Assembly (NCBI GenBank): GCA_024698145.1
Contig: JAILRO010000047.1
Span: forward strand, 27,162-91,161
Source: Lachnospiraceae bacterium
GTDB taxonomy: Bacteria > Bacillota > Clostridia > Lachnospirales > Lachnospiraceae
Reading direction: 5' to 3'
Length of the DNA stretch: 64,000 nucleotides
In this document: positions 51,655 through 53,866 of the stretch, one piece after another
Layout: each line of letters starts with the position of its first letter
How positions within the stretch are numbered: position 1 is the first letter of the stretch
Made by a program: the position numbers and the translations under genes
The notes under the pieces: generated by a model
Told to the model about the DNA's origin: nothing
The model's database searches: none
Seen by the model: the letters and a program-made list of their open reading frames with translations, nothing else

Positions 51655-52407
51655 TTATTTGTTGTAGTTAACAATCTGACCGAAGTCTGCCTTAAGAGAA
51701 GCTCCTCCTACAAGACCACCATCGATGTCAGGTTTTGCAAGAAGCTCTGCAGCATTACCTGCATTCATAGATCCACCGTACTGGATACGTACTGCATCAG
51801 CTGTTGCAGCATCATATATTTCAGCGATACAATCACGGATTCCCTTACATACTTCCTGTGCCTGATCAGATGTTGCAGTCTTACCTGTACCGATTGCCCA
51901 GATTGGCTCGTAAGCGATAACAAGCTTCTTAACATCATCAGCTGCCACACCATCAAGGTCTGACTTAATCTGAAGACGAATCCAATCCATAGTAACACCC
52001 ATCTCTCTCTGCTCTAAAGACTCGCCACAGCAAAGAATTGGTGTAAGACCGGCTTCGATTGCCTTCTTAACCTTCTTATTAAGAAGAACATCATCCTCCT
52101 TAAAGTAATCACGACGCTCAGAATGACCGATGATAACATACTTAACACCTGCATCAACAAGCATTGCAGCAGATACCTCTCCGGTATAAGCTCCGCTCTC
52201 TTCGAAGTACATGTTCTCTGCACCAATCTCAACATTAGTTCCCTTAACTGCCTCAACAACAGGAACGATATCTACAGCAGGTACGCAATATACTACATCT
52301 ACTTCATCATTAGCAACTAAAGGTTTCAACTCTTCAACAAGCTTAACAGCCTCTGAAGGAGTCTTGTTCATTTTCCAGTTTCCTGCAATAATTTTCTTTC
52401 TTGCCAT
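51655..52407 (-). CDS. tpiA: Triosephosphate isomerase
   Basis: [45 protein letters not shown]; start 52407 after GGAG. Confidence 0.98.
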
Positions 52408-52438
52408 CTCTAATCTCCATTCATTTTTTAATGTATCC

Positions 52439-52618
52439 ATAATTACGAAGTTCTTTTCACATGCATGTTTTATAGTTCCAACGCAGACACGTTCTCACTC
52501 GATTATTCACGTAGCGGTACTAAGTTCATGCTTCGCATTCACTAAGTACCGACGTTCATAAACGGTCTGCTTATGGACTCTACAAAACATGCATATACAA
52601 AATGAACTTCGCAATTAT
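52439..52618. repeat. ~180-nt imperfect full-length inverted repeat (MITE-like or structured RNA element) between pgk and tpiA
   Basis: Ends ATAATTACGAAGTTC...GAACTTCGCAATTAT; arms share ATGCATGTTTT(A/G)TAG and CAGAC/GTCTG; centre GGTACTAAGTTCATGC-TTC-GCATTCACTAAGTACC. Confidence 0.85.
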
Positions 52619-52654
52619 TACTTTCACAAATAAATTATAGGTTAATCAATATAA

Positions 52655-53866
52655 TTATCGATTATTAGCCGCAGCAACACCCGGAAGTTCCTTACCCTCT
52701 AAGAACTCAAGTGAAGCTCCACCACCTGTTGAAATGTGGCTCATCTTGTCACCGAATCCAAGCTGGTTACAAGCTGCTGCTGAATCACCACCACCGATGA
52801 TTGTTGTAGCATCTGTATCAGCCAATGCCTGAGCTACAGCGATTGTACCTGCAGCAAGTGTAGGGTTCTCAAATACTCCCATAGGTCCGTTCCAAACAAC
52901 AGTCTTAGCTGTCTTAGCTGCATCTGCGAAGAGCTCTCTTGTCTTCTCACCGATATCAAGACCTTCCATATCAGCAGGAATTGAATCTGAAGGTACTGTT
53001 GAAACTTCGATAGGTCCATCGATTGGATCAGGGAATCCCTTAGCAATAACTGTATCGATAGGAAGAAGAAGCTTCTTACCAAGTTTATCAGCCTTATCAA
53101 GCATCTCCTTACAGTAGTCAAGCTTTGTATCATCTACAAGTGAAAGTCCAACTTCTTTACCCTGAGCCTTTAAGAATGTGTAAGCCATACCACCACCGAT
53201 GATAAGAGTGTCACACTTCTCAAGAAGGTTAGAGATAACGTTTAACTTGTCAGCAACCTTAGCACCACCAAGGATTGCAACGAAAGGACGAACAGGATTC
53301 TCTACGGCATTACCGAGGAAGTCGATCTCCTTCTGCATAAGGTATCCAACTACAGCTGTGTCAACAAGTGAAGCAACACCTACGTTTGAGCAGTGAGCTC
53401 TGTGAGCTGTACCGAATGCATCGTTAACGAACACATCACAAAGAGAAGCAAGATCCTTTGAGAAAGCCTCTCCGTTCTTTGTCTCTTCTGCACGGAAACG
53501 TGTATTCTCAAGTAAGATTACATCTCCGTCATTCATAGCCTCTACAGCAGCCTTTGCGTTAGGACCAACAACCTCAGGATCAGCAGCAAACTTAACATCC
53601 TGACCAAGGAGCTCTGAAAGTCTCTTAGCTACAGGAGCAAGTGTCTTAGTCTGCTTGTCCTCTTCTGTCTTAACCTTTCCAAGGTGTGAGCAAAGGATAA
53701 CCTTACCACCATCAGCGATAAGCTTCTTGATTGTAGGAAGTGCAGCTACAAGACGATTCTCATCTGTAATCTGACCATCCTTTAAAGGTACGTTGAAATC
53801 ACAACGGCAAAGTACTCTCTTGCCTTTTACGTTGATATCATCTACTGATTTCTTGTTTAATGACAT
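52655..53866 (-). CDS. pgk: Phosphoglycerate kinase
   Basis: [53 protein letters not shown]. Confidence 0.98.

Follow-up and report, generated by a model that had tools for sequence, protein, structure and literature searches.

MITEs with IS helpers are short elements without an open reading frame that share their TIRs with an autonomous IS, generate target-site duplications, occupy AT-rich intergenic sites, and yield transcripts with stable stem-loops (PMC10969869). The element described here resembles them in these respects. It differs by an elaborate core that covaries across many genera within different terminal chassis, a property for which ordinary MITE interiors are not known. Effects of MITEs on mRNA include the cleavage of Correia elements by RNase III and the provision of RNase E sites by ERIC (PMC10969869). 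ERIC and Correia/NEMIS are likewise palindromic repeats that reside in operons, with some transcripts cut by RNases, but their hosts, ends, and structure differ from those of the present element.

The bcr1-bcr18 repeats of the Bacillus cereus group offer a second point of comparison, as lineage-restricted intergenic repeats that often occur in mRNAs and operon gaps (PMC3446304). Among them, bcr1-3 are MITE-like, bcr10 and bcr18 show conserved secondary structure, and the decay rate of B. cereus transcripts correlated with the presence of bcr3 (PMC3446304). Compared by description, the present element shares both the MITE-like and the structural traits. It belongs to a different lineage, however, and here a single element is at once MITE-like and covarying, with a family-wide distribution.

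Two further systems touch parts of the element. The IS1182 family, which includes IS1272, comprises one-ORF insertion sequences of about 1.75 kb with TIRs and the domains DUF772 and DDE_Tnp_1_6, as does the autonomous relative described below. According to one report, IS1272 targets stem-loops and replaces them (PMC5678879). In contrast, the transposase found here scores far under the family cut-off, and its elements generate direct target-site duplications of 9-13 bp without stem-loop replacement. TwoAYGGAY RNA (RF01731) is, like the putative RNA of the core, a structured RNA of Clostridiales and adjoins it in some composite repeats of about 550 bp; it does not match the core and represents a neighboring module only.

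An inverted repeat between pgk and tpiA

The window, meaning the whole stretch of 64,000 nucleotides analyzed from contig JAILRO010000047.1 of a Lachnospiraceae bacterium, contains a near end-to-end inverted repeat that the preliminary description had placed at 52439-52618, 36 nt from the end of pgk and 31 nt ahead of tpiA. Sequence, coordinates, and spacing are as claimed, and alignment to the family sets slightly wider limits (about 52436-52621; Table 1). An ATG at 52440 in the list of open reading frames falls within the element and was set aside as the tpiA start for the one at 52407, which opens MARKKII.

Both strands fold more stably than shuffled sequence. The plus strand (52400-52650) reaches -66.8 kcal/mol, compared with -32.6 +/- 4.0 in shuffled sequence (z -8.6), and the minus strand, which is the sense strand of pgk and tpiA, reaches -83.2 kcal/mol across the element against -39.5 +/- 3.9, a value attained by 0 of 200 shuffles. 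The family covariance model assigns 151 bits to the minus strand and 27 to the plus strand. A GNRA loop on the side hairpin and a tandem G.A in the arm appear when the minus strand is read; the tip hairpin motif occurs once in the window, where 0.01 matches are expected. Old and degenerate, the repeat belongs to a MITE family; no target-site duplication is recognizable around it.

Table 1. Features of the pgk-tpiA element and its flanking genes, in window coordinates
Feature	Coordinates	Strand	Evidence
Whole MITE copy, degenerate ends	52436..52621	- (strand of core = pgk-tpiA sense)	alignment to intact 211-bp copies; fold z -11.2
TIR, pgk side: GTAATAATTGCGAAGT, degenerate form of TAGGYRATTGCGAAAC	52606..52621	-	
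TIR, tpiA side: CTTCGTAATTATGGA region, degenerate form of GTTTCGCAATYRCCTA	52436..52451	-	
Conserved structured core, 139-position covariance model R1	52458..52596	-	151.2 bits, E 6e-33
Tip hairpin CUUAGUGA-AUGCGAAGCAU-GAACUUAG, U.U mismatch and tandem G.A pairs	52520..52546	-	motif match and covariation
Small side hairpin GU-GAGA-AC, GNRA tetraloop	52491..52498	-	
pgk, upstream gene	52655..53866	-	
tpiA, downstream gene, start at MARKKII..	51655..52407	-	

A MITE family and its autonomous relative

A DNA search of the same genome (2.89 Mb, 71 contigs) returned 42 rows, one of them the reverse hit of the element to itself, which corresponds to about 40 places. The true copy number may be higher, because many contigs end within copies. 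Of the 23 other species in the genus, 16 have copies detected by BLAST; the 16 genomes searched from other families have none. The element is too short to code for a protein and contains no open reading frame of transposase size.

Intact young copies in the sister species G012, G005, and G013 measure 210-212 bp (about 211 bp). They are bounded by 16-bp TIRs (TAGGYRATTGCGAAAC / GTTTCGCAATYRCCTA), with direct repeats of 9-13 bp, mostly 11-12, on either side. Exact target-site duplications of 9-13 bp accompany 15 of 32 TIR pairs, or 21 when one mismatch is allowed; when left and right flanks were paired at random, 0 of 1947 combinations showed a duplication of at least 8 bp. TIR-bounded elements vary in length between 51 and 264 bp, the smallest (51-54 bp) consisting of TIRs alone, without the core. 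Multiple copies, TIRs, target-site duplications, and an autonomous relative are thus all present for the family, the TIRs of the window copy being degenerate. A single copy without covariation had been named in the preliminary description as the outcome that would argue against both of its readings, and counting copies and looking for duplications had been proposed. The element proved to be multi-copy in its own genome and in relatives (about 40 places in the former), with duplications around young copies and strong covariation.

The autonomous relative was found by a TIR pattern search. In the closest relative, G002, a 1753-bp element (locus L157) encodes one ORF of 491 aa, and an 86% identical IS in G007 (L159) shares its TIRs and is flanked by a perfect 11-bp duplication, TCATTTTAACC. 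These sister-species insertion sequences span 1.75-1.78 kb, produce duplications of the same size as those of the MITE, and carry a single IS1182-like DDE transposase with DUF772 and a weak DDE_Tnp_1_6 domain. Against the curated IS1182 model, the transposase scores 77.5 bits, where the cut-off is 270. It is therefore described as IS1182-like and not filed as a member of IS1182.

A homologue of this transposase was sought in the genome of the window, and none was found. The transposase of the sister-species IS would have moved the MITE in trans. Because its outer ends are degenerate and no transposase homologue was found in its own genome, the window copy is probably immobile now. Neither the autonomous IS nor the 51-54 bp elements made up of TIRs alone contains the core, which indicates that the core is not needed for transposition.

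The pgk-tpiA gap across relatives

The preliminary description had offered, as an alternative to a MITE, a dedicated cis-regulatory RNA conserved at pgk-tpiA that controls readthrough or processing. The sense orientation of the element, its occupation of the gap, and the lack of any predicted terminator in that gap fit such a role. Moreover, about half of the species have sense-strand hairpins in the gap, unrelated to the element, with the motif CUUARYGA..GARYUUAG that also occurs in the tip of the MITE core. Nevertheless, this explanation is very improbable. The element is multi-copy, no core lies between pgk and tpiA in any of the 21 relatives whose gap could be read (lengths of 20 to about 380 nt), and the other half or so of the species have a short, plain gap without a hairpin. 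Since none of the 21 relatives carries the element there, the insertion is private to this genome and is not a conserved regulator of pgk-tpiA; a locus-specific RNA is largely refuted.

The closest relative, G002, has an identical PGK protein and a 160-nt gap with two small hairpins directly after the stop codon. Homology between the two genomes ends at the end of pgk and restarts about 19 nt ahead of the tpiA start. No empty site with a target-site duplication was found for the window copy, because the spacer in G002 is wholly different. A change from a spacer with such hairpins to a MITE bearing the same motif recalls stem-loop replacement of the IS1272 type, which is only suggestive at this locus and not demonstrable because the surrounding spacer differs as well. 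Replacement of an inverted repeat without direct duplication is not what young copies display; they make direct duplications, and for this reason an IS1272-type mechanism is not claimed.

Stand-alone CUUARYGA..GARYUUAG hairpins were recorded in pgk-tpiA gaps (L062-L065, L068-L071, L074, and L079) and elsewhere in the genome of the window (L177, L180, L183, L186, L189, and L192). They often form tandem pairs 3-10 nt past a stop codon, inside operons, and are mostly sense, with 19 sense and 4 antisense cases in non-coding gaps between codirectional genes.

Architecture and covariation of the core

The plan of the core is constant in an alignment of 44 non-redundant copies read on the minus strand. 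A long outer stem leads through an internal loop to a GCAGAC/GUCUGC helix and a three-way junction, from which a small hairpin and a long arm emerge. Along the long arm lie a CU bulge of 2 nt, a U.U mismatch, and a tandem G.A, and a short hairpin closes its end. The loops of the small hairpin are of GNRA type (GAAA, GAGA, GCAA, GCGA, GGAA, and GGGA), its stems alternate among GC/GC, GU/AC, and AC/GU, and a GNRA loop is present in 29 of 30 copies from other genera.

Covariation, proposed as a check in the preliminary description, was assessed against a null based on a parsimony tree, with our own script in the manner of R-scape. Nine of 50 consensus pairs are significant at E<0.05, and no significant pair lies off the structure, so that the core covaries beyond phylogeny, as a structured RNA does. 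Of all cells in the alignment of 44 distinct other-genus copies, 93.9% pair, and both sides have changed in 49 of 51 pairs. Their covariation score is 0.81, compared with 0.20 for shuffled and 0.10-0.15 for slid alignments; this alignment was fitted to the model and hence leans towards it. Of the choice originally posed between a MITE and a conserved cis-RNA, the MITE part is supported by about 40 copies, TIRs, duplications around young copies, and an autonomous IS that shares those ends. The RNA part holds by half: covariation and RNA-type motifs support it for the core, and its absence at this site in 21 relatives contradicts it as a regulator specific to pgk-tpiA.

Variants of the architecture were also observed. 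In L036, L009, L025, L033, and L034, the small GNRA hairpin gives way to a duplicate of the tip hairpin (AAGCTC-CATGC..GCATTCGCTAAG), which produces a two-armed structure. Copies in G012 (e.g., L089, L091, and L095) form a young subfamily with a plain stem, CUUAUGCACC..GGUGCAUUAG, in which the tandem G.A tip is lost. Because this tip-less subfamily has amplified, the tip is not essential for spread.

Probable selection on the core, as RNA or DNA

The core is likely under selection as a folded RNA and less likely as single-stranded DNA. The GNRA loops, the sheared-type tandem G.A, and the U.U mismatch all fall on one strand, which favors an RNA read from the minus strand. In the core of the genus set, G-U outnumbers A-C by 34 to 5. 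The alternative is that the core is selected as DNA, as an extruded cruciform or single-stranded hairpin recognized by the transposition or replication machinery, with no RNA function. Wobble pairs are indeed few for an RNA family (52 G-U, or 2.5%, with 32 A-C and 2027 Watson-Crick in other genera overall), clean changes from one Watson-Crick pair to another are many, and long, copy-specific, perfect outer arms occur in other genera. Relative to genes, copies occur on either strand, and the reported stem-loop targeting and replacement by IS1272, of the IS1182 family, would also suit a DNA structure (PMC5678879). We regard selection as DNA as unlikely all the same, because the autonomous IS and the TIR-only elements lack the core, so that transposition does not depend on it. 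In the well-paired inner helices of other genera, G-U is commoner than A-C, which is unexpected for a two-strand cruciform. GNAB is the loop pattern that is stable in DNA. The loops observed here fit the RNA pattern GNRA instead, with A or G as the third base and always A as the last.

Paired changes without wobble intermediates, along with near-perfect and copy-specific outer arms, could also arise by mutation without selection, if template switching between the arms of a quasi-palindrome copied changes across. As an account of the covariation, this has little probability. Arm correction would erase mismatches and asymmetries, yet the U.U mismatch, the tandem G.A, the 2-nt CU bulge, and the one-sided GNRA hairpin persist across genera. 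In the outer arms, template switching may contribute.

Orientation was counted in gaps between codirectional genes, with genes taken from simple ORF calls. Sense and antisense copies number 14 and 3 in the genome of the window, 8 and 15 in its genus relatives, and 11 and 6 in other genera. The initial bias towards sense was dropped as evidence, since the genus relatives do not repeat it and the counts in other genera are not decisive. As copies lie both ways relative to genes, a general role in mRNA is unsupported.

Distribution and carriers

At a threshold of E<=1e-4, the covariance model R1, built from 31 copies, recovers the core from 88 of the 200 Lachnospiraceae genomes screened and from 87 of 199 genera; copy numbers of 10 or more are frequent. 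Among the named carriers is Pseudobutyrivibrio ruminis DSM 9787. A sampling of the class that comprised 288 genomes yielded seven with a match, all of them Lachnospiraceae; the roughly 278 from other families gave none. A search of Rfam 15 at E<=1 with the window, copies from the same genome, and copies from other genera returned no family over the element. A 26-bit overlap with a miRNA family in L036 was discarded as chance, the gathering score being 100.

The termini around the core vary. In G172, which belongs to another genus, the core lies within the same TIRs and is flanked by duplications of about 10 bp. In G127 and G092, it lies within other, long inverted repeats. This combination of shared and foreign ends indicates that the core outlasts its carriers. 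The outer arms of the G127 copies (L238-L244) are strongly unlike between copies and near-perfectly complementary within each copy (e.g., GCCCGTCTGGCGG/CCGCCAGACGGGC). In G092 (L251, L252, and L253), the inverted repeats GGGGTGGGGAAA..TTTCCCCACCCC are surrounded by copy-specific palindromic sequence (CTTTTCAT/ATGAAAAG and TACTGTTTAT/ATAAACAGTA), as if the element had inserted mid-way into pre-existing palindromes.

A recently amplified composite repeat of about 550 bp in the genome of the window joins the core to TwoAYGGAY RNA and ends in AAATTGCTGTTTA / TTAAACAGCAATTT. It occurs at L017 1587-2019 and L040 1241-1654, as well as in L022, L026, L027, L032, L034, L038, L039, L041, and L009, and many contigs end in it. 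TwoAYGGAY itself may be a mobile-repeat module. Separately, a sub-threshold match to Clostridiales-1 RNA (RF01699; 40.9 bits against 48) lies at L228 1243-1359, about 140 nt from a copy of the core.

Implications for the locus and the family

We consider it quite probable that the pgk-tpiA element is an old, immobile MITE copy carrying a structured-RNA passenger, that its core has been selected as a folded RNA, and that it would form a folded spacer in a gap-pgk-tpiA transcript. The passenger would correspond to the core of about 139 nt between the TIRs. As no terminator is predicted in the gap, a gap-pgk-tpiA transcript would carry the element as a long folded spacer, which may be processed or may stabilize transcript ends; this local effect is the least certain step. 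The function of the core RNA, and any effect of the window copy on tpiA expression, are speculative. A broader reading, which we advance tentatively, treats the core as an undescribed class of structured RNA, present in tens of copies per genome in much of Lachnospiraceae. It could have a molecular function of its own, for example, protein binding via the tandem G.A and the GNRA loop, and could spread as cargo enclosed by the ends of inverted-repeat mobile elements that are different and unrelated.

Members of the Lachnospiraceae are dominant in the gut communities of humans and ruminants. The element, a high-copy structured sequence of 87 of the 199 genera sampled, is absent from RNA databases. 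Its copies are also a common reason why contigs break in metagenome assemblies of the family. The covariation is strong enough to make the structure, its partner, and its effect directly testable. More broadly, the element crosses the usual divide between MITEs, in which structure is a by-product, and functional RNAs, which are single-copy and lie near the genes they regulate.
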